Below are positions 30,613 to 51,215 of a DNA stretch of 64,000 nucleotides, piece by piece. The translations under genes were made by a program, and so were the position numbers. Each line of letters starts with the position of its first letter. Positions within the stretch are counted from its first letter, which is position 1. The notes under the pieces were generated by a model, which had not been told where the DNA came from, searched no databases, and saw nothing but the letters and a program-made list of their open reading frames with translations. Source of the stretch: Obelidium mucronatum (Eukaryota > Chytridiomycota > Chytridiomycetes > Chytridiales > Chytriomycetaceae); NCBI GenBank assembly GCA_025765595.1, contig JAIVFH010000052.1, forward strand, positions 179,944-243,943. The letters are read 5' to 3'.

Positions 30613-30639
30613 CAATACCTGCACATCAGTCTATTCCTT

Positions 30640-32902
30640 TTATTATAAATAAATAATTAAATAAATGGATAGTAAATAAATACACATTGCTCAACCCAGA
30701 GCTTGCAAAACTGATTCCCCTATCTTCCGATTGCAATCTGTGGCATTGCAATTGATGTTGAAGGTAACCGCTTTCTGCAAACTTTCCTGGTTACTCTTCA
30801 CTGCCCAGCTTGCCGTTCCCATTCCATCTGCCAGAATCAGCCGGATTCTCTGCTTTCTAGTATCTGTTGCAAAAAGGCTGAAAGTAAAACAAGCAAACAA
30901 GAAGATGGAAAGGATGAGGCAGGCAAAAGTGGGATCAAAGAGAAAGTGATATCACCAAGTACAGAAGCGCATGCAATAAAGGAAAACCCTCTGACACAAT
31001 TAAGGGATTTTTTCTTGCCAATACATTGGACCTACAGCGTTGTGTTGACTGTGACTGGCTGCTTTGCCCCACCAGGCTGAACGCAAACCTATTAAAACTG
31101 AATTAGAAAGAAGACATGCATTCTGGACTGCAACAAACAAGAAAAATAAAAACAAACAACCAATATGACCTTCATAGATATAGCAAGAGCTGAAGTTGGG
31201 CTGGCCAACGAGTTGCAGAAGATTGGTGCAGGATTTTGTAAGGAAAGAAAAGAAAAAAACAAAGGAAAAGAGGAAAATTAAAACTGTCTACACAATCAAT
31301 TGGAATGGTAGTAAACGTTGTTTTTACAACTTGAACGCTTTGGAAACCACTGTTTTTTCATATTCCCTGACTGGAATTGTAAAAACCAATTAATAAAATC
31401 ACAGACAACCAAACTAAACATATAAACCAGAACTGCCTTTTAAAATTACAAGCTGCAAAGATCTTTCTTGATGAAAGTGTTGCCTGCTGGATGAGAGTGT
31501 TGTTTGTTTTTCATTTCCCACCGCTCTTGTCAAAAAATATTAAACAAAAAATACAAAACCACTCTGAGCAGTCTGTGGTAATGAATGGGCTTTCTCATTC
31601 TCCCATTCCACAATCAACCAGATGATGAATGCGCTTTCTCATTCTCTCTGTTGTGGGGCTGCTCTGGTCTTGGTGTTTTCAGCCTTGGGGTCTCCACACA
31701 ATGTCCTACCTGCCTGCCACTGAAAACACGCATATTTGTATTTTCCTTATTTTTATTCAACTCTCTCTGTATCGAATCTGGTGTTAAATTGTTGTATTTT
31801 GTACCAGTAGTTGGTTTGCCGCATTGCCAGCCATTCACTTCTGCCACCTCTAGTAAAACATGCCACCTCTATGCTCAAAATGATGAAAATCAGATGATGA
31901 AAGGGCTTCCTCTTTCTCTCTGGCTTCTTGTCTGCTGTTCTTTCTGTTTGCAACATTGCCATGCTGCGGAACTGCCGCTATGCCACACACACACTCTTTC
32001 TCCTAAATACATCAATGCATCAGTTACATAAAAAGACAATGTTTGAATTGCAGATAAAAAGCAGATGATGAAAGGGCTTTCTCTTTCTCTCTGCTTTTTG
32101 TGCTGTTGTCACAGTAAGACCTGGTGCCGCTCCAATTCGCTGGAATATTAATTCAGCACAGACAGACTTGCAAACAATGGTGAACTCCAGTCTAAATTTT
32201 TCCTTTGTTTTCTATTGTAGTTTTCTATTTTTATTTTTGAATGACAGATGGACGCGTTGCGTTGCAAAGCAAGTCCCACTATTCAAGCACAATTTCATTT
32301 GTGTTAAATTCAATGGAGCAAAGGTCCGGCTATGGGGACACTACCAGCTGCATTGCAAGCCAATTACGGCAGCTTCATCCAAGTGTTCCACCACCTGCAC
32401 TTCTACAAGGCTGGGCAAAGCGGCCGTCAGTGTAAGCCAGAGACATACACAGTGGTTGGGGCCTTTGAAAACAACCAACATGTCAAGAAGGCATAGTAGC
32501 AGGAGCCGCTTCAGGAAGGAAGCGCAAGCAAGAAGGTAAAGCGCTGATTGGGGTTTTTTTTATTGATTGTTTCTTCAATATTTTGTTATTTTCAACTTTG
32601 TGCATCCTTTTTTTGTTTTTGTTTATTGTTGGTACTTTGGATTTTGTTTATTACTTTAAATACATATGTTATGGTTTTAAAACTTTTCTGCTCATTGTTT
32701 CTTACCTTTTTTGAAATAAAGTAAGGACTAGCTTTCAACTGGCTCTCCACTGGCTGTCAACTGGCTTGCGGCCTGTGAACTAACTGCAACGCGGCTGGCT
32801 TTCCACTGGTTAGCGGCTCGCACGCGGGTTGCCCACAGGTCGTGAGCAGCCTGCTAAGCGACCCGTTAGCGGCTCGCGAGGTCCGGCTCGCTATGGGGAC
32901 AC
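30640..32902 (+). mobile_element. Internally deleted KDZ transposon derivative (copy 3)
   Basis: A patchwork of the 9.4-kb element at 41383-50755. 30650-30870 matches the 3' end of its TET/JBP-like gene. From about 30868 it jumps to the 3' end of its JmjC-like gene and the first codons of its transposase (MTFIDIARAEVGLANELQK, 31167-31230). 31440-32110 holds the GAATGGGCTTTCTCATTCTC motif cluster, 32350-32560 matches the 3' end of the last gene, and 32730-32902 is the right terminal repeat ending CTCGCTATGGGGACAC. The left terminus is missing. No intact gene remains. Confidence 0.8.
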
Positions 32903-41205: not shown

Positions 41206-41382
41206 CCAAGCTTTTTCTTTCCGTCTGGTGCCTTATGAGTTGCGGCAAAACTCACTGGTTTAAATTCGACATCAGCGAGAACTAGCTCCTCCTGATCACT
41301 CATATTGAGGTTTTCTTTGTCCCCATTCTCAACCCCTGCCTCCTCCTCCTCCTCCTCCTCCTCCTCCTCCTCCTCACAATTC
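41124..41382 (-). pseudogene. 3' part of an acidic ORF interrupted by the KDZ element
   Basis: The minus-strand ORF that starts at 50897 (MMSASAIGTAANLRKGSKRS) and reaches SYYMNC at the right target duplication continues here in frame as NCEEEEEE..., then ENLNMSDQEELVLADVEF and LGHVVITIKDSLGCSIKDIK. The two halves meet exactly at CACAATTC. The Glu run is coded by a CCT microsatellite at 41339-41374. Function unknown. Confidence 0.7.
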
Positions 41383-41577
41383 CAATTGGGGATGCGGGCC
41401 GGACCTCGCGAGTCGCGATACCGGGCGCGTTGCGAGCCGCTCACGGGCCGCTTGCGACCTGCTGACGAGCCGCTAGCGGGCCGCTTGCGACCTGTGCCAC
41501 GGCCTGTTGGCAGGCCGCTCTGTACCTTTTTATGTGGGGCGCGAGCCGCAAGCCACTTGTTCACAGGCCGCTAACCC
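41383..41577 (+). repeat. Left terminal and subterminal GC-rich repeat of the KDZ element
   Basis: About 195 bp with two units of GAGCCGCTnrCGGGCCGCTT followed by GCGACCTG, then GGCCTGTTGGCAGGCCGCTC and GCGAGCCGCAAGCC. The CGGCC/GGCCG words are self-complementary, so multiple hairpins are possible. The counterpart at 50583-50755 is in inverted orientation. Confidence 0.85.
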
Positions 41578-41694
41578 CCAACTGTCACTAAAACTCAAGA
41601 ATAAGCCACAAAAAATGTATCAAATAAGGCTGTTTATTAAGGCTGTTTATTATCAATAAATAAATAAGTAAATAAGTAAATAAGTACACATTGC

Positions 41695-42976
41695 TCAACC
41701 CAGGGCTTGCAAAACCGATTCCCGTATCTTCCGATTGCGATCTGTGGCATCGCGATTAATGTTGAAGGTAACTCCCCGCTTCTCCACCACAGCGCTTCCC
41801 ACAAACCTGTCCTGGTTGTGCTTCACAGCCCAACTCGCTGTTCCCATTCCATCTGCCAGAATCAGCGAGATTCTCCGCTTTCTAGTATCTACCTCCGCCA
41901 CCAACTCCGCTGCCTCCGCAAATCGTCTCTCCCCTGAATGCCACATCCTGGTCCCATGTTTTTCATGCTTGAACATGGAAACAATCGCCTCCCCATGAAC
42001 CGCTGGGATCACCACATTTCGATCTGGTAGGTACAGTGCTGGCCATACCACGGGCAGTTCCGCGTCTTCCTCATCCACCACAACACTGAAGTTGATCCCG
42101 AACGTTGAATTTTTGCTGTCCAGGTGGAATTTGAAGTCCCCGCTGTTAGAGCACGCAAGAAACGAGGATGTGAAGATCCCAAAGATGGGATCGCATGTGG
42201 TTGCAACTTCCTATTGGTCTCGTTTTCGCAATTAGAAGGTGAGCGCTAAACTATAACAAACACATACATACCTTTGTAATGTTAGCCACCATCTCAAACG
42301 CCTCCCGATGTACCAGAGACTCCACAACGCCAGTGAGGTAAGCGACCAGCGGCTGAAGGCCCTCAAAGTGGGGCAGCAGCTCTGGCTTGATGTTCTCCTT
42401 TCCAAACACCGCCAGCCCGTTCGCTACTTTTTCGGCATGTTCTTTTACCTTGACAGACGCTACATCCGCTGGGTAGTGCGGGTCCTTGATGCCGTCTGCA
42501 ACTCCAGTCCAGGAGCACAGGTTGATGACTCGCATGTTGCCGCGCGTCTTGACCTTTGGCTGCGAGCGTCGAAAGATAGCTGCGAGATCGCGGATGTGCG
42601 GCATGGCGTCCTTGAGTATATAGGGCGGCAGTTTGATTCTAATAGCACTCCCAAGTTGTTAGCAACGCTTGGACTGCAACAACACCAAAAAAACCCTCAC
42701 CTCCCTGCAACAAGCTCTTCAACTCCGTCTGTGTTTAGACCATACACAAACTCCTGTCCCTTGGTTCTGTCATCCAGCACTCGCAGCTCTGCAGGTTTTG
42801 TTGCTGAAAATGTTTAACACCAACCACAGCAAAAAAAAGAAGTTGGCCCACCAACCTATAATATCAGCGCGGCTCAATCCCTGCTCAGACATGTGCTTTT
42901 GGCGTTTCAGCATCTGGTGTGCAGCGGTGGATGCTGACTTTTTGACGCGTTTTCGTTTGTTACGCGTTTTGTCCAT
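41695..42976 (-). CDS. TET/JBP-like 2-oxoglutarate/Fe(II) dioxygenase carried by the KDZ element
   Basis: Minus-strand gene, ATG at 42974-42976, stop near 41695, four exons (introns near 42825-42865, 42640-42710 and 42212-42273, all GT-AG). The N-terminus is Lys/Arg-rich (MDKTRNKRKRVKKSAS), a likely nuclear signal. The catalytic fold near the C-terminus shows FKFHLDSKN (HxD plus the Ser-Lys-Asn/Asp that follows it in fungal TET/JBP proteins), ALYLPDRNVVIP, a distal His in HEKHGTRMW, and an Arg strand RRISLILADG for 2-oxoglutarate. The order and spacing match TET/JBP enzymes, which oxidise 5-methylcytosine or thymine in DNA. Fungal members are known to travel with KDZ transposons. It is divergent from the JmjC-like gene with 163 bp between. 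Copy at 53151-54424 is broken; copy at 30690-30870 is only a 3' piece. Confidence 0.72.
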
Positions 42977-43139
42977 TGCATTAATAGATAAATAAATAAA
43001 TAAATAAATAATCAAGTTAACTCAACAATACTAAGGTAATTTATTGAATCAAAGTATTCCTTGCATATCAACGGCTACAAAGCTGTAATAAAGTATTCTC
43101 TGCGTTGTTGTGTTCTCCCTCATCACTTTGACTTGAAGA
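42977..43139. promoter_or_regulatory. Shared promoter between the two dioxygenase-like genes
   Basis: 163 bp between divergent ATGs with an (AAAT)n tract TAGATAAATAAATAAATAAA and TATTGAATCAAAGTATTCC. Conserved at 54425-54583 in KDZ copy 2. Promoter role inferred. Confidence 0.5.
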
Positions 43140-44294
43140 ATGCGACGCTCAACAAGACAACGCCAAGCCGCCGCCGCTGCCACAGCCTCAACCAAACATA
43201 CAACAGCATCAACCTCTTCTATCAACCCGATCACAGCAATTAGAGCGTGTCCTGCTGCTCCTGCTGAGATCCTTGCCGCTCTGGATCAAATTGAGCAAGT
43301 CCTGTTGGATCGCAGCCGCATCTATATCCTGTCGGACTGCAACCTGGATCTTACGCGCTTGGAATGCCTCCTTCTTGCCAATCCTGGCAAGATTCTATTC
43401 CTGCCATCCTCCAGTATTCCTGCTGATCGCTTGACGTCAGGGGAGTATTATCCCACAGCCTGCTACCACGACCGTCAACCACACAAAAGGAGCTTTGTCT
43501 CTGGGTTTTTTGATCCATTGGAGCAATGGGAGCTGCAGCATGCAGCGTTTTCCGCTCCAATCATGTTGTGTCAACCCATCAACCACTACCGCCACTCCCC
43601 CCTCCATCAGGACTATGGAACAGCCATCAACGTCCTCCTTCAATTACCCACCAATCAGCAGCTATTCAAGCTGTGGGTGGTGCTTGTCCCCAGCGACCCT
43701 ACAGCCATCATCCCTACCCTTAATCCCCTGTCTTTCGCTCAAGCCATGGCTTTGGAGGTGGGCCCTTCCTGCACATACACAGCAAGGATCTGCTTTGTAA
43801 AGAGGCCTGGCGATCTCTCCGTCATTCCTTCTGGCTACCCACACGCTGTGATCACAGTCTCAACAACCAGGGACGCGACATCCATCATGGGCGGCGCCCA
43901 CGTCATCTTTCCAAAGGACTACCTGTATGTGTACAAGTACAATTGTGCCAGCAAGCACACTTACCTTAGGGGGAACACCAACATCAAGTACCACTACTAC
44001 ATGGTTTGGTTTTATTTCCGCTCTACTATCTTCAAGGGTGCCAATGGTGGTTGTCATGAGTTGGAAGGGGACTTGCTAACTATAGAAGAGTATAGCGATT
44101 GCAGGTTTGATGGGGTGAGGGATGCGGTGGCGGAGTTAGTGTCAAGTTGGACAGTGCGGGGTGATGCCAAAAGGGAAGCTGCAGCCAAAGCAGCAAAGCA
44201 AGGTGTTTCAAAAAGGCTGAAAGCAAAACAAGCAAATAGGGAGAAGATGGAAAGGGTGAGACATGCAAAAGTGGGAGGATCAAAGAGAAAGTGA
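43140..44294 (+). CDS. JmjC-like (cupin-fold) 2-oxoglutarate/Fe(II) dioxygenase carried by the KDZ element
   Basis: Single-exon ORF of 384 residues. After a basic, Ala/Ser/Thr-rich N-terminus comes a region with IMLCQPINHYRHSPLHQDYG (H156 and D158 as the HxD metal pair), INVLLQLP, FKLWVVLVPSD, then GDLSVIPSGYPHAVITVS (H235 as the third metal ligand). This HxD...H order with the 'hydrophobic-P-x-G-x-x-H-x-V' strand is that of JmjC-type oxygenases (histone or protein hydroxylases/demethylases); a fungal family name cannot be given. The C-terminus is Lys/Arg-rich (RLKAKQANREKMERVRHAK) and may bind nucleic acid. Its 3' end recurs at 30870-30950, and its 5' end at 54584-54685, where a Helitron-like element interrupts it. 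Confidence 0.62.
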   Translation: MRRSTRQRQAAAAATASTKHTTASTSSINPITAIRACPAAPAEILAALDQIEQVLLDRSRIYILSDCNLDLTRLECLLLANPGKILFLPSSSIPADRLTSGEYYPTACYHDRQPHKRSFVSGFFDPLEQWELQHAAFSAPIMLCQPINHYRHSPLHQDYGTAINVLLQLPTNQQLFKLWVVLVPSDPTAIIPTLNPLSFAQAMALEVGPSCTYTARICFVKRPGDLSVIPSGYPHAVITVSTTRDATSIMGGAHVIFPKDYLYVYKYNCASKHTYLRGNTNIKYHYYMVWFYFRSTIFKGANGGCHELEGDLLTIEEYSDCRFDGVRDAVAELVSSWTVRGDAKREAAAKAAKQGVSKRLKAKQANREKMERVRHAKVGGSKRK

Positions 44295-44504
44295 TATCAT
44301 AACTATAGAAGCACATGCAATAAAGGAAAACCCTCTGACACAATTAAAGAATTCTTTATTGCCAATATACTGGACCTATAGCGTCGCGTTGATTGTGATT
44401 AGTTGGTTTGCCCCAACAGGCTGAACGCAAACTTATCAAAAATAAATTGGAAAGAAGGGAGGCATTCTGGAATGTTCAGAACAACAAAAGTAAAAACAAC
44501 CATC

Positions 44505-46586
44505 ATGTCCTTTATAGATGAAGCAAGAGCTGTAGTTGTGCTGGCCAACGAGTTGCAGAAAGTCAAGCCGTTCCTGCATAGGTTCAAGACTGCAGTCAAA
44601 CTATATGACAACAACAACCGCATGAGGGCGATCTGTGATCACATCTCCAAGCAGTTTTCCTTGACCAATGAAACAGTATTTACCTTGGCTGACAAAGTAT
44701 TCCAGTGCCCAGGCATGGACGCGGTCAATCACTGGAAACCTGTCCAGCCATCTGTCCTTGTGGCTCCATTCTCGCAATGCCACAGGTGCACCAAGAACTT
44801 GACTTTCAGCAGCACGCAAGTAGTGGTGTTGGGAATGGAAGGCCCATACCACGCGTCGCTGTTCAAGGGCAACTGCACTAAATGCCGCATGTGGTACAAT
44901 GTGGATTCTGTCGCGTACATGAGCGAAGACAAACAGAAGCAGCTGATAGAGATGTATCCGCTTGAAACTATCATGTCAGTTGGCTTCCTCAAGATCAATG
45001 AGCAGTACTACGTCACCATACCTTTTGCGGATCTCTGGCTAAAGCACCTGCCGTCTGGCCTTCTGTTGGTATTTTCTTCCATGGTAAATACTAAATTGCT
45101 TATTTACTCATGCCTCACACATAGGGTGAAGCTGTATCGTGAGCAGCGCACATATTCACTGGCCTTTCCAAAAATCAAAGTGCCTGATCCAGACAGCGCG
45201 GTGATCTTCAAACGTGGATTTTACGTGTATCACATGCTACTACTGCAGCAGTACATCTCCAAGATCCCTGCCAATGATGACTATGAACATATGCGGTACA
45301 GTCACTTCAGACCTTCCTGGGCCCCCAAAACAACGCATGTGTGGAGCAACACCCTATTTCTGGGACCATACTTACCAAAAACAGGTGATTCCATTCATGA
45401 CATCAGACCCGCGATGCGGGAATACGTCACGTTCATGACTGATTACTTCAGCAAGAAGTGGCAGCACCGCTGCAACGGCTGCCACCAGTTTTACAACGGA
45501 AAGGAAATCTCTGGCAGTGTAATGGATGGGAAAGTCATGGGGCATCTATTGTGCTCTGTGCCTGGGTGTGTGTTGCCTATTCTTGGTGTGAACACATTGT
45601 TCTGCTCATCGCATGCGCCCCTGAAGAATGAGTGCATCATCTCTGGCTGCAAGCGAAAAAAGACTGACTCTGTTTTGCATACTTGCGGACTCAGCGCTCA
45701 CAACGCGACTGTCCAGGAAATCATTGGAAAACAGTGGAACAAGGACTTTAAAGCGACGCGAAAGTCCAAGAGAACGCGAACATCTACAGTGCATATTGAT
45801 ACACAAGAAAAAGAGTTAGTAGCGGATCAGCAGTTCAAGTACAGTCTGAAGCAGCGGTTCCTGCCTGGAATATTTATGGCTGTGTGGAGCTGCGGCATGA
45901 TCATTGGAATATCTAAGATGTACTCTTTTGAGTCTTCTACCTTTATTTCTCGCTTCTTATGCCACTGTTTTGAGCGAATGGGCGAAGTACCTACCTTTGT
46001 TTTCTACGATAGAGCCTGCCGCTTGCTCCAATCCCTACGCGCGCGACACGTCGCAGGAAAATTCACAATATATGAAAGGTGCACTTTACTTATTTATTAT
46101 CACGCGTTCCGTTCATTAAATAGTGTTCTCTTCTTATACTTACCACCAATCTTTGTTGGAAACAGGCTCTTGTACAAGACTGTTACGTTTGTGGTTGACA
46201 GGTTCCACTTTCGGATGCACAGGGACGACTTCTGTACAGAGCATTGCGATCCAGCAAAATTCAAGGAATTGACGTCAGGAGGGCCTGCAAATGGAAAGGG
46301 GAGGTTTAACACGTCCGCGGCAGAACACTGTGCCAAGTGGTTCGATCAAACCGCTCACCTGATTCGCTTCCACGAGCCCGTCCAAGCGGATTTCATTATG
46401 TGGTGTCTCGCAGACTTGAGAAACGCGGACATCCAGAGCGGAATTTCAAAGAAGAAAAGAGTTATTAGAAACGAAAGCGAAGACAAAATGGAGGCGGAGG
46501 AGGAACAACAAGAAAAGGATGATGAGGAGGATGATGAAGACACCAACGAAGATGATGGTGAAGGAGAGGAAGAAGAGGATGAATAA
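44505..46586 (+). CDS. KDZ transposase with CxC5/CxC6-like cysteine clusters
   Basis: Starts at MSFIDEARAVVVLANELQ (ATG 44505; the same start is kept in copy 3). First cysteine cluster: QCHRCTKNLTF, KGNCTKCRMWYN. Second: HRCNGCHQFYNGKEISGS, LLCSVPGCVLPILG, LFCSSHAPLKNECIISGC, LHTCGLSAHN, as in the CxC5 and CxC6 domains found only with KDZ transposases. The catalytic core follows: FVFYDRACRLLQSL (Asp), VDRFHFRMHRDDFC with CDPAKF, then FNTSAAEHCAKWF (Glu). It ends in an acidic tail (DEEDDEDTNEDDGEGEEEED). One in-frame intron is likely (46079-46165, GTGCAC...AAACAG), since the joined text ER-LLYKTVTF reads better. The enzyme would cut and join the GC-rich ends. Confidence 0.85.
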   Translation: MSFIDEARAVVVLANELQKVKPFLHRFKTAVKLYDNNNRMRAICDHISKQFSLTNETVFTLADKVFQCPGMDAVNHWKPVQPSVLVAPFSQCHRCTKNLTFSSTQVVVLGMEGPYHASLFKGNCTKCRMWYNVDSVAYMSEDKQKQLIEMYPLETIMSVGFLKINEQYYVTIPFADLWLKHLPSGLLLVFSSMVNTKLLIYSCLTHRVKLYREQRTYSLAFPKIKVPDPDSAVIFKRGFYVYHMLLLQQYISKIPANDDYEHMRYSHFRPSWAPKTTHVWSNTLFLGPYLPKTGDSIHDIRPAMREYVTFMTDYFSKKWQHRCNGCHQFYNGKEISGSVMDGKVMGHLLCSVPGCVLPILGVNTLFCSSHAPLKNECIISGCKRKKTDSVLHTCGLSAHNATVQEIIGKQWNKDFKATRKSKRTRTSTVHIDTQEKELVADQQFKYSLKQRFLPGIFMAVWSCGMIIGISKMYSFESSTFISRFLCHCFERMGEVPTFVFYDRACRLLQSLRARHVAGKFTIYERCTLLIYYHAFRSLNSVLFLYLPPIFVGNRLLYKTVTFVVDRFHFRMHRDDFCTEHCDPAKFKELTSGGPANGKGRFNTSAAEHCAKWFDQTAHLIRFHEPVQADFIMWCLADLRNADIQSGISKKKRVIRNESEDKMEAEEEQQEKDDEEDDEDTNEDDGEGEEEEDE

Positions 46587-46639
46587 ATAACAAAACTCAC
46601 CTTTACAAACTTTGTTTTTGCGCCGCTTGCGTCGACAGT

Positions 46640-46845
46640 GAGAAACACAGTACAGAGAGAATGAGAAAGCCCATTCGTCATCTGGATAGAAGTGTTTGGG
46701 GAGCGGGAGAACGAGAAAGCCCATTCATCACCACTGAATCAAACAACAAACTGGCGCCGCAGGACAGAGAGAATGAGAAAGCCCATTCATCATCTGAGTA
46801 TCTGCGAAGTAGGAGAATGAGAAAGCCCATTCATCACTACCAACT
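46640..46845. repeat. Cluster of four GAGAATGAGAAAGCCCATTCATCA motifs
   Basis: Starts near 46656, 46706, 46769 and 46813, spaced 40-65 bp, just after the transposase gene. The reverse complement occurs in copy 3 (31584, 31626, 31895, 32064) and at 51142 and 51186. Confidence 0.85.
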
Positions 46846-47058
46846 GCGCATTTTTGCTATTTTTTTTGTTAAGTCTCTTTTGGCGGGACAAAATTAAACA
46901 GCAATAACGTCAAAGTATTTTTCAAACACTGCGCCTATACAACAATCCAACAACCCCCTATCGCTGCATCCATCTTTGATGGCCTCCCTGCTGAGACAGT
47001 GAGCGTGATTCTTTGATTGGGGTATGTGTGTTTCTTCTCTTTTTATTTTTTAAATATT

Positions 47059-47664
47059 ATGTCCCCATTAACACGATTGCGAGCCAATCCTCAGGAAATC
47101 GTGGATCCAACCAAGGCACCGTGGCCGAGCCGGTGTGCCAAACCAGGATCGCGTCGACAAGCACCGAAATCGAAGCAGGGGGGGAAGGAGAGGCAGTTGG
47201 AAACTAAAGCAACAGAAGAAACCAAGGCAATCACGGTCTCACAGGTGGTCCTGTCCAACGGAGTTAAGTCAAAAAAACCAAAGGCAACAATTCGGCTTGA
47301 TCGAGCGACAGCGTCGAGGAGATCTACAGACGCGGAGCACATCAATGCTGGACCAAGCAACACTAAGCCAAAAGCGCGGATACGGCTCAATCTGTCGAAA
47401 GGATTGTACAAATCAAAAGAACAGGTGAAGATGGAACCTGTTGGTGCTGGATGGAATCACGGGGATGACAATGATGGTGGATCTCCTGGACCAACACCAA
47501 AAGTGGAGGACGACGACGATGAAGTACTGTCATATTCAAGTTCGGATGTGGGATCGGATTGGGGACCCGATCGGATGATTTTGGTTGATGGGGAACTCAT
47601 GGAAGGGCTCCCAATTGTAGATGGGGAATTGTACACGCCTGGGCGATACAGGGCAGACTTCTGA
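47059..47664 (+). CDS. Basic, disordered protein of the KDZ element
   Basis: 201-residue ORF from ATG 47059. The first 130 residues are Lys/Arg-rich with two related motifs, KSKKPKATIRLDRA and NTKPKARIRLNLSK. Then comes an acidic stretch (KVEDDDDEVLSYSSSDVGS) and a C-terminal hydrophobic/acidic repeat (DGELMEGLPIVDGELYTPG). No domain is recognised. It could be a DNA-binding accessory factor; evidence is only the charge pattern and its place between transposase and the next gene, same strand. Confidence 0.55.
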   Translation: MSPLTRLRANPQEIVDPTKAPWPSRCAKPGSRRQAPKSKQGGKERQLETKATEETKAITVSQVVLSNGVKSKKPKATIRLDRATASRRSTDAEHINAGPSNTKPKARIRLNLSKGLYKSKEQVKMEPVGAGWNHGDDNDGGSPGPTPKVEDDDDEVLSYSSSDVGSDWGPDRMILVDGELMEGLPIVDGELYTPGRYRADF

Positions 47665-47791
47665 GTGTATATGTGGGTTCTTTATTCCTTCCCTACTCTC
47701 AATTTGTCTTTTCACAAATAAAGAAACTTTGGGTTGTTTTTAAAAAATAAATTAACTTTGGTGCATTTTTAAAAAATAAAGAAGATTTACA

Positions 47792-50402
47792 ATGTCCGAA
47801 CATCCATTAGCCCCAGGAAACCCCAGCACGGTCGCAGGTCTGCTGGATCGTCTCGCCAACAGTCGTGACTGCAGACACTTCATCAATGTTCCATTTTCGC
47901 TCCCCTCAGTTGCAGACGGGACGTGGATTAGCGGCTACCAATGGATAACCAAGCCGCGCGCGGATGGCTCCGTTAACCCCAAGTCACTCAAGTACCTTTG
48001 GAAGACAATCCACGGGCACGTGTTTTACCCAAACATCTCGAAATTGGCACCCAACCCATGCACAGATGCAATGCGAGAGCTGGTGCCACATATAATCATG
48101 TAATGTTTGTTCATAGTTCCGCACTATCCTACGCACTATATCTAACATGTGTTTTTTAGTATGTTGAATACTAACTTTGCGCCAGTGGTGTACAACTACC
48201 ACATGAAAGAAAACGATGAACAGCTAATGACTGTTGTACACCTGGACTTCCCGATTGTCTTAACAACACTGAAAAAAACAGTTGAATCTTTTCAGTTTCT
48301 TACAGACGATGACCTCGCAGTTCTGGCTGGACAAGTGGGGTTTGGTGTCCAGTTTCCTGACGAAACGGAGTTAGACCTCGACGTAGCAAGAAAACTAATG
48401 CCGCGATTCATCTACGGTAATGTTTTCTTTGCCTTCAAGTGTATATGTACTGCTAAAGCTCTGTTTTTTGTTGTTATAGATCGCAAGAATGTGAACAACA
48501 TGTTCAAGGTGCGTTTTACCACACAGCTGTACCCAGAACCCAGCAAAACAAACGTGGATGGATCAAAAAACGCGGAGCGCTTGCACAGGGTCCCACTGCG
48601 GGAGTCGCGGATTGACCTGCAGGAAGCGATCCGGAACGAAGTTCGCAGAGAGCAACGCCAACGCGAAGATGGGAGTGAGAGTGGCTTTATTCTCCACGTT
48701 TCCGATGACGAAGAAAAGGAAAGTGACGACGATGTTGTAATTGTTGGTCCAACGATTGCAGGTATGTTTCTTTATTTTTTATGTCTAAGACTAAGCGCCA
48801 AGCATCACCAACACCAGCCAAACAGCCTGTGCGCAAAACCTACAGCAAGACGCCCAGCTCTGCTAAATGTGACGAGACGGCTATGGAAAGGCGCAGAAGA
48901 CGTAAGCGTCATTAAAATGTGGTTTCTTCAATTTTAATCTATAAAAATCACACAACAGGGTCTGTAAGTCCACCAGACGAACGGGGAATCCAATCTGAAA
49001 GTGACGCAGACAATGGCGCCGATGATGACGATGTCAATGCATCCTCAAGCGAGTCTGATAGACAGGACGCTCGCAATGATGACGAAGACTTGGATGAAGA
49101 CGAAGATGAGGACAAAGACGAACAAGTGTCAAGCCAGCCGCAGTCGTCTGGCTCTATCCGCAGCCGCATTAGTGATACGCAGCCTTTTCCTTTGGATTAC
49201 GATGATGGTGAGAGATATGTTTTTATTGCTTGGCTAACAACATTCAGCAGATGAAGCCGACGAAAGTCCAGCACCGGAACCGCCGAAAGCCAAAATCGGA
49301 GTCACTCTTATTGCGGACAAGTCGACAAAGCTGCTTGTTGAAATTCCGTATGTGATGGATCGGAAAGACCGCTATGTTTTAGGTAAGTGGATTCTTTCTT
49401 CCGCTGTTGTTTCCTCAAATCCTCTGAGTATTAACTCTGTTTTAGGTCCAAGTGACATCATCAAGTTCCTCTCAAGTCACGCAGCATTCCTGGCAAGGGG
49501 TATCCGCTGCGACTACGTGGAGCTTGTTGACGAAGATGGCTTTGGACGATCGTCGTTTGTAATTCAATACACAGCTGTCTTTGGACAGATTGACATCAAA
49601 GCCGGAAGCAGTGAGTGTGTTGTGATTTGTTTGAGCAGGGAAGGGTACTAACTGCCTTTCTATTGATAGTCTCGCAACCAGTGTTTGCTCGCCCTGCCGT
49701 TGTGACCCCACTGTCGTCGCAATTGTATTCAACTCCAATGCTTCCAAGCTCTGGCTCCGGCAGCTCCCGCCGTGATTCGATGGAATCAACTTCGACGCAG
49801 TCGTCAATTGTGTTTCGCCCAGCGGGACGTTCGGGAGGAGTGAAGGAGAAGCAAGTCGATGATGTGATGAAGTATGCGATCATCTACTGCAAGCTGTTGG
49901 CTGAAGGGAACATACGAAAGGACAAGATCCCGGCAATGGTCAAGCAGGAGACTGGGTTGGTCAACTTTCCTGACAAGAAGGAGTCTGGACATGCGTACGT
50001 TGGGCTCCATTTGTACAATGAGGAGCTGAAAAAGGTGATTGCATGTTTATTGAGTGTTATCTGCATTTTCTGACTTTGCTATAGATCTTCTTGAAGTACA
50101 AGTGCTTCTTTGCGACATACAGTGGAATGACGTTTACTTTTGAATTAGCGAAACGTCATTTTGCTGAATGGACCAAAAAGCTGTCGTTCCATACTGGTGT
50201 TCCTGACGAAAACCACAATTCTGGCAGCTTCATCCAAGCATTCAACCATCTGCACTTCTACAAGGCAGGGCAAAGCCGCCATCAGCGCAAGCCAGAGACG
50301 TATGTGGTGCTTCGGGCCTTTGCAAACAACCAACACGTCAAGAAGGCGTATTGGCGGGAGCCGCTTCAGGAAGGAAGCGCAAGCAAGAAGGCAAAGCGCT
50401 GA
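47792..50402 (+). CDS. Multi-exon protein of unknown function, last gene of the KDZ element
   Basis: Starts MSEHPLAPGNPSTVAGLLDR at 47792. At least eight exons, edges approximate: 47792-48100, 48160-48416, 48480-48760, 48960-49207, 49250-49382, 49446-49610, 49670-50034, 50086-50402. Successive conserved-looking blocks: RHFINVPFSLPSVADGTWIS, YNYHMKENDEQLMTVVHLDF, a Ser/Asp/Glu-rich linker, IADKSTKLLVEIPYVMDRKD, FARPAVVTPLSSQLYSTPML, and a C-terminal block ELAKRHFAEWTKKL, SGSFIQAFNHLHFYKAGQ, YVVLRAFANNQHVKKAYW. No catalytic motif is recognised. The 3' 200 bp are repeated at 32350-32560. Being kept intact beside the transposase suggests a role in transposition or in controlling the host. Confidence 0.6.
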
Positions 50403-50582
50403 TTGGGGGTTTTTTTATTTATTGTTTCTTCAATATTTTGTTTATTTCAACTTTGCGCATCCTTTTTTGTTTTTGTTTATTGTTGGTACTTTGGATTTTG
50501 TTTATTACTTTAAATACATATATTATGGTCTTAAAACTTTTCTACTCATTGTTCTTACCTTTTTCAAAATAAAGTAACGACT

Positions 50583-50755
50583 AGCTTTCAACTGGCTCTC
50601 CACTGGCTGTCAACTGGCTTGCGGCCTGTGAACTAGCTGCGACGCGGCTGGCTTTCCACTGGTTAGCGGCTCGCACGCAGGTCGCCCACAGGTCGCGAGC
50701 GGCCTGCTAAGCGGCCCGTTAGCGGCTCGCGAGGTCCGGCTCGCTATGGGGACAC
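50583..50755 (-). repeat. Right terminal and subterminal GC-rich repeat of the KDZ element
   Basis: Reading outward to inward on the minus strand: GTGTCCCCATAGCGAGCCGG, ACCTCGCGAGCCGCTAACGG, GCCGCTTAGCAGGCCGC and so on to AGAGCCAGTTGAAAGC. Near-identical to 32730-32902. Confidence 0.85.
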
Positions 50756-50763
50756 CACAATTC

Positions 50764-50999: not shown

Positions 51000-51215
51000 C
51001 AAGGTGCAAATCTATTTCTTTATGTAGGTGTTGCTTGCAGGATGAGAATGTGGTAGATACCATGTTTGTTTTTCTTCTCCCACCGCCCTTGTCAAAAAAA
51101 GTTAAACAAAAAATACAAAACCATTCTGAGCAGTCTGTGGTGATGAATGGGCTTTTTCATTCTCCCATTCCACAACTAACAGATGATGAATGGACTTGCT
51201 CGTATTCGCTCAGGC
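51000..51215 (+). repeat. Copy of the KDZ copy-3 internal segment
   Basis: Resembles 31450-31640 (CTTGTCAAAAAAAGTTAAAC, ACAAAACCATTCTGAGCAGT, CTGTGGTGATGAATGGGC) but lies outside the complete KDZ element and its flank. A further scattered remnant. Confidence 0.7.

Follow-up and report, generated by a model that had tools for sequence, protein, structure and literature searches.

A putative KDZ-type transposon of the chytrid Obelidium mucronatum with two divergent genes for candidate oxygenases

KDZ transposons with TET/JBP genes were reportedly described by Iyer in 2014. In a survey by Kojima (2025), TET-bearing DNA transposons were recorded in three Dikarya lineages, and those of Basidiomycota included KDZ transposons (Kyakuja, Dileera and Zisupton) with a TET/JBP gene (PMC12730594). 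The same survey proposed that the TET genes of Dikarya transposons serve the escape from methylation, which it called not experimentally validated, and mentioned a SET methyltransferase in HarbingerS and MuDR elements of Phytophthora as well as sequence-specific silencing regulators in plant Vandal/MuDR elements (PMC12730594). The present study concerns a DNA transposon of 9.37 kb from the chytrid Obelidium mucronatum (Chytridiales), which spans positions 41383-50755 of a 64,000-nucleotide stretch of contig JAIVFH010000052.1 (the whole analysed stretch, hereafter the window). Its target duplication of 8 bp is perfect, and all five of its genes are open.

The Obelidium element shares with the Basidiomycota ones a KDZ-type transposase and a TET/JBP-like gene between the same ends, and the function proposed for both is escape from methylation; its target duplication has 8 bp, as in Zisupton and Dileera (PMC12730594). 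It differs by its host (a chytrid, not a member of Dikarya), by a TET/JBP-like gene (gene A) too diverged for the Pfam TET_JBP model and by a second, JmjC-like gene (gene B) located divergently beside A. HarbingerS, MuDR and Vandal elements resemble it in that a DNA transposon encodes a protein acting on host silencing marks, but they carry a writer or regulator, whereas the Obelidium element carries a pair of candidate erasers (PMC12730594). Since TET-bearing KDZ elements were already known, the element is a variant of them; no precedent for its chytrid host or for its JmjC-like partner was found in the literature searched. The main text of PMC12730594 did not contain the words Obelidium, chytrid or JmjC, and neither a TET-bearing KDZ element in a chytrid nor a JmjC-like gene on a KDZ element was found in the open-access literature, most subscription journals being outside the scope of that search.

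On balance, the element appears to be an autonomous KDZ-type cut-and-paste transposon with a two-enzyme counter-silencing cassette, the fold, chemistry and substrates of A and B being predicted from sequence. More tentatively, one transposon of an early-diverging fungus may unite, around one divergent promoter, erasers for two silencing layers: a TET/JBP-like one for DNA methylation and a JmjC-like one for histone marks. Its features are listed below (aa, amino acids); introns were placed according to splice signals and codon constraint.

41375-41382: left target-site duplication CACAATTC
41383-41580: left end; 68% G+C, 25 CpG, six GCCGCT subterminal repeats, 14-bp inverted repeat CCGGACCTCGCGAG at 41399
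41695-42976, minus strand: gene A, TET/JBP-like 2-oxoglutarate (2OG)-oxygenase candidate; 371 aa; H229-x-D231, H285, R312/R313
42976-42856, 42803-42701, 42647-42272 and 42210-41695 (stop included), minus strand: the four exons of gene A
42977-43139: A-B intergenic stretch of 163 bp, presumed shared promoter
43140-44294, plus strand: gene B, JmjC-like oxygenase candidate; 384 aa, one exon; H156-x-D158, K177, H235
44505-46586, plus strand: gene C, putative KDZ-type transposase; 664 aa from the assumed start; predicted 87-nucleotide intron at 46079-46165
47059-47664, plus strand: gene D; 201 aa, no family match
47792-50402, plus strand: gene E; 691 aa, 8 exons, long acidic stretch, no credible family match
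50580-50755: right end; 65% G+C, 18 CpG, inverted counterparts of the left-end repeats
50756-50763: right target-site duplication CACAATTC

The left end, CAATTGGGGATGCGGG, begins at 41383 and the right end, ...GGGGACAC, stops at 50755. The exact 14-bp inverted repeat (41399-41412, complement at 50726-50739) lies within imperfect ends, and CACAATTC is present on both sides of the transposon. In the 48.3-Mb genome, the 16-mer of the left end occurred 45 times exactly and 113 times with at most two mismatches, against one occurrence for the reversed control. Our copy set consisted of 20 stretches taken at 20 of the 45 exact left ends. One of them, L026, was a full-length, one-piece match to the element (98%); L032 aligned with it except for small gaps and the final 59 bp, L031 matched with interruptions and the remaining stretches were partial (broken, internally deleted or cut by a contig end). 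An earlier note, made from the sequence alone, had delimited the region 41375-50763, that is, the transposon with both target duplications, and had described ends recognizable in two other copies, a perfect 8-bp duplication and five apparently intact genes. All of this was confirmed: L026 matched end-to-end and L032 nearly so, the duplication is identical at both flanks and genes A to E are all open. The promoter that the note assigned jointly to A and B was upheld in its arrangement, the start codons of the two genes diverging at a distance of 163 bp with 92-100% identity of this stretch across the eight compared copies; promoter sharing itself is presumed.

Both ends were found on one strand in 9 of the 20 stretches, four of which displayed a perfect 8-bp duplication: L024 (ATAATGTC), L026 (ATGAGAAG), L028 (AATCAGTG) and L040 (CCTACAGC). 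No perfect 8-bp duplication was seen in the other five two-ended copies (L023, L025, L031, L034 and L035), which may be due to nesting or recombination. L040 is a short derivative of 2.35 kb (about 4088-1738, minus strand) with the left end CAATTGGGGAAGCGAG. This end variant was met again among the left ends listed for the genome, so a non-autonomous subfamily probably exists. Identity to the window copy was 97.1-98.8% for A against 99.0-99.6% for B in L026, L030, L031 and L034, and alike for both genes in L032; such mosaics suggest that copies have exchanged sequence.

The window itself contains a truncated second copy (L029, 52843-54691), about 92% identical to element positions 1-1863 and with a stop codon in its gene A, as well as a short, internally deleted relative (30639-32902) that matches the element only in parts close to its two ends and in small intervening pieces. 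A dispersed short repeat of the AGAATGAGAAAGCCCATTCATCA type is located in the C-D interval (46648-46837) and outside the element (31531-31651 and 51093-51201).

The earlier note had made the presence of both oxygenases in another genome a test of its reading; outside this species, neither of them appeared in the protein search. In a search of 5.8 billion proteins, all 16 matches of A were from Obelidium mucronatum, and the 12 matches of B were either named Obelidium mucronatum (11) or the window's own protein (1). This search depends on shared exact words and may have overlooked distant relatives. To date the family is known from one species, in whose genome it has many copies.

Gene C matched CxC6 with 50.3 bits (E=2.8e-13, Pfam cut-off 27.5). 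Its matches to CxC5 (22.0 bits, cut-off 26.9) and to the KDZ domain PF18758 (15.8 bits, E=0.012, cut-off 26.6) fell below the cut-offs, the latter being partial (76-162 of 217) and appearing only when the predicted intron was removed. Together with the 8-bp duplication, observed in the window copy and in four of the nine two-ended copies, these matches support the assignment of gene C as a KDZ-type transposase, in agreement with the earlier proposal. PF18758 matched at 17 other places, which shows that the Obelidium genome harbours additional KDZ elements.

Selection on the five genes was estimated as omega under a neutral model with transition bias and CpG hypermutability, using only copies that covered at least 60% of a gene. 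Copies were projected onto the reference codons with indels masked, and comparisons to one reference are not independent. Omega of gene A was 0.06-0.53 in 15 of 15 copies (P<0.05 in each), that of gene B 0.22-0.41 in all six copies of a more distant clade and that of gene C 0.36-0.53 in 9 of 9 copies. Values for D (0.24-0.65) and E (0.28-0.55) came from six copies each, with P<0.05 in three and four of them, respectively. A was lower than C in each of the nine copies having both; within the distant B clade, four of six copies had a lower value for A than for B. Purifying selection acts on A and B. In addition, residues presumed to bind iron and 2OG, namely H229, D231, H285 and R313 of A and H156, D158, K177 and H235 of B, were invariant among the 11-16 copies covering each residue (11 for B). 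With 106 of 371 positions variable in A and 92 of 384 in B, this invariance is a modest but fitting result.

Two observations from the same copies pull the other way. Purifying selection was not apparent in the five B copies nearest to the reference, which carry 5 to 21 changes each (P 0.11-0.96), and R312 of A is replaced by W in one decayed copy, L040. The former, together with the genome matches of B, which were mostly pieces (112 matches, of which 10 were full-length frames without stop), is what would be expected if A and B had been captured from the host and rode along as passengers that do nothing for the element. Given the omega values well below 1 of both genes, in 15 of 15 copies for A and in the six more distant ones for B, with A even below the transposase in all shared copies, and given the retained motif residues, this passenger idea was rejected as largely refuted, and we regard it as highly improbable.

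Gene B was compared with six JmjC/Cupin_8 domains of the host (the JmjC set), three collected via Pfam JmjC and three via Pfam Cupin_8 (L050, L052 and L053). In hhalign, a 7-sequence B profile scored 30.1 against this set, whereas 60 column-shuffled decoys reached 19.4 at most (mean 13.1, sd 2.2). The B core scored 28.2 against the JmjC set and 10.9 against the TET profile; 73 open reading frames (ORFs) from those parts of the window that lie beyond the element region reached no more than 16.5 against the JmjC set, although they were run as single sequences and not as profiles, a softer control than shuffled profiles. Pairwise likeness was highest to the JMJD6-like host protein L045 (z=6.7, 0 of 1000 shuffles as high), followed by the KDM3-like L048 (z=3.5, 7 of 1000) and L050 (z=3.2). 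Values of 2.8 and 3.1 to two TET_JBP proteins may reflect a common fold or chance. The motif order of B is HxD (H156, D158), the presumed 2OG-binding K177, assigned by position, and a distal H235 after PG(D/E)..P.G. L045 is in register with B at the HxD as well as at the PG(D/E)...P.G..H stretch that follows it, L048 at the HxD only. A further link came from a diverged B relative at C545:105-383, where Pfam JmjC scored 23.2 bits (cut-off 24) in the same frame as the B match (61% identity over B residues 154-254).

Several results speak against this assignment. B itself had no Pfam JmjC (PF02373) match at E up to 10, in contrast to L045 and L048, which pass the cut-off; three of the six reference domains (L044, L052 and L053) showed no pairwise likeness to it (z -0.3 to 1.0), and hhalign probabilities were low (12-34% with the pooled and JMJD6-like sets, 0.9% with the KDM3-like set). 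Among eight other B proteins scanned, seven had no cupin or JmjC model match and one, P0004, matched Cupin_1 and Cupin_2 weakly and below the cut-off (E 0.02-0.04). For both A and B, the Pfam, NCBIfam and PHROGs scans returned no credible family, and PDB sequence searches with either profile returned two weak, unrelated matches. Yet the B profile exceeded all decoys, and a JmjC-like nature of gene B can be regarded as well supported by profile and motif comparisons. The earlier note's JmjC-like oxygenase was retained on that ground as a candidate. Gene B is also CpG-poor (observed/expected 0.49, versus 0.75-0.95 in the other genes).

Gene A displays the order HxD, distal H and 2OG-binding R (H229, D231, H285 and R312/R313), the roles of these residues being presumed. 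The alignment of its core with the widest profile used, made of six TET/JBP sequences that include aligned pieces of CcTET and NgTET, extends from HxD as far as the distal H and scored 20.9; this was higher than all 40 decoys (mean 11.5, maximum 16.8) and all 73 window ORFs (maximum 15.7). Pairwise, A resembled two TET_JBP proteins, L041 from Obelidium (z=5.5, 1 of 1000 shuffles as high) and P0030 from Siphonaria (unverified and partial according to its source; z=3.8, 3 of 1000). Both have the same HxD...H...RxSLI order as A, and L041 additionally has DSKN. A and L041 have in common, in this order, K.H.DSKN, [LF]Y.PD, G[ED].IV and the distal H, followed by R.SLI as judged by eye. Unlike A, both proteins lie just over the Pfam TET_JBP cut-off, and the gene of L041 is outside this element.

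Other comparisons count against a TET/JBP relationship. A had no Pfam TET_JBP (PF12851) match at E up to 10. Whole A scored 23.0 against a 5-sequence TET profile, not beyond its decoys (maximum 23.6, n=60), and one of 40 decoys was as high as the A core against a 4-sequence profile. The hhalign probability for A versus TET was low (2-7%), pairwise values were only 2.2 for L042 and 2.1 for P0031, and no likeness was detected to the CcTET (z -0.3) and NgTET (z 0.4) pieces. The genome has nine TET_JBP places, one of them over the cut-off; gene A is not one of them, and none of the nine is among the listed genome matches of A. The missing Pfam match, the decoys doing as well as A in two of three profile tests and the lack of pairwise likeness to CcTET and NgTET would fit a reading in which only B is an oxygenase, A being some other conserved accessory protein, such as a DNA-binding regulator, with HxD...H...R by coincidence. 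We find this distinctly unlikely in view of the widest profile, of the HxDSKN, the LYLPD/FYFPD strand, GEAIV/GDLIV and the distal H standing in register between A and TET, and of the lower score of A against the JmjC set (16.9, with 1 of 40 decoys as high). Gene A is thus retained as a TET/JBP-like candidate by motif and, with less certainty, by profile. The TET/JBP likeness claimed in the earlier note held for the motif order and, modestly, for the 6-sequence profile; Pfam did not show it, and with the 4- and 5-sequence profiles it was not clear of the decoys. Both A and B may be predicted to adopt a double-stranded beta-helix fold.

Diverged relatives of A without stops were also encountered at G000:C78:6202-6663 (51% identity) and C95:94893-95177 (46%), and possibly belong to other element families or are host genes. 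Two of the TET_JBP places, L042 and L043, are 9.5 kb apart on G000:C41 and agree in their TET_JBP ORF as well as in the list of their other ORFs, some of which, next to it, look by eye like a copia-type polyprotein. This TET gene is possibly carried by, or trapped in, a retroelement; no retrotransposon with TET was recorded in the Kojima survey (PMC12730594).

Decay was examined in the reference and in 16 copies that each had over 1500 mapped bases, against a site-wise majority of at least 60%. Transitions affected 6.2% of C at CpG versus 1.1% of other C. CG changed to TG or CA at 455 of 3735 sites (12.2%), compared with 212 of 5874 (3.6%) for GC to AC or GT, and the reverse changes were rare (TG/CA to CG 141 of 13616, 1.0%; 1.2% for the reverse of the GC change). 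The excess was specific to CpG (CA, CC and CT were all at 1.0-1.2%) and extended over the five genes and both ends, with CpG transitions at 4.6-9.7% in each; it was small in the B-C interval (5.7% versus 3.7%). The decay is a scar either of CpG methylation followed by deamination or of CpG-directed mutation. As for the host machinery, the genome has 25 exon-level matches to the DNA-cytosine methyltransferase model PF00145 and 11 to MT-A70. In Spizellomyces, another chytrid, transposons are the sole place of 5-methylcytosine (5mC) (PMC12695648).

PF00145 matches at near-equal scores recur on G000:C26, C338, C40, C412, C12, C127 and C549, and some of these genes may therefore ride on mobile elements.

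The same scars could have come from mutation resembling repeat-induced point mutation (RIP) instead of 5mC deamination, and, according to a review, the dominant mark of early-diverging fungi, including Chytridiomycota, is N6-methyladenine (6mA), which has almost displaced 5mC in that role (PMC13297926), so that 6mA stays a possible substrate of A. Both points tell against 5mC erasure, and they lead to an alternative in which A and B are 2OG oxygenases that counter CpG-directed (RIP-like) mutation or act on 6mA, RNA, the transposase or a host protein and do not remove 5mC or histone marks. Methylation-linked mutation would account for the CpG scars no less well than silencing, and protection from C-to-T hypermutation was suggested for Puccinia elements in the Kojima survey, where 6mA is also named as a substrate of CcTET (PMC12730594). 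The MT-A70 genes of the host fit as well, as does the best host match of B, the JMJD6-like L045, for which the top four PDB sequences are of JMJD6, under the names arginine demethylase and lysyl-hydroxylase. On the other hand, the spread of CpG transitions over all genes and both ends and the few stops in A and B (0-4 per copy) make the decay look gradual, unlike a single round of RIP. We consider this alternative rather unlikely.

In the favoured counter-silencing reading, the host would place CpG methylation on element copies. A, as a TET/JBP-like 2OG-Fe(II) oxygenase, would oxidize methylated bases of the element, in all likelihood 5mC, and would do so at the CpG-dense ends too. B, the JmjC-like 2OG-Fe(II) oxygenase encoded by the divergent neighbour gene, would remove or change a second mark, most likely a histone methyl group and otherwise a methyl group on another protein. 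Together, A and B would keep gene C expressible and the ends accessible to the transposase, with D and E as presumed accessories. Escape of the element from silencing is consistent with the CpG-specific decay of copies and with selection on A and B.

Genes D and E offered few clues. No family was found for D in the Pfam, NCBIfam and PHROGs scans, and E gave two Pfam matches under the cut-off and one weak PDB match at residues 303-408, none of them credible. The long acidic stretch of E is preceded by SDDDVVIVGPTI, which we take to resemble a SUMO-interacting motif.

If the chytrid case is true, the alliance between KDZ transposons and methylation erasers would be older or would have arisen again outside Dikarya. 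If the second eraser is truly of the JmjC type, one transposon could answer DNA methylation and chromatin silencing together. Open-gene copies and a strong record of CpG decay occur here in one free-living chytrid, so that the protection by an element's erasers of its own copies becomes testable by methylation mapping.

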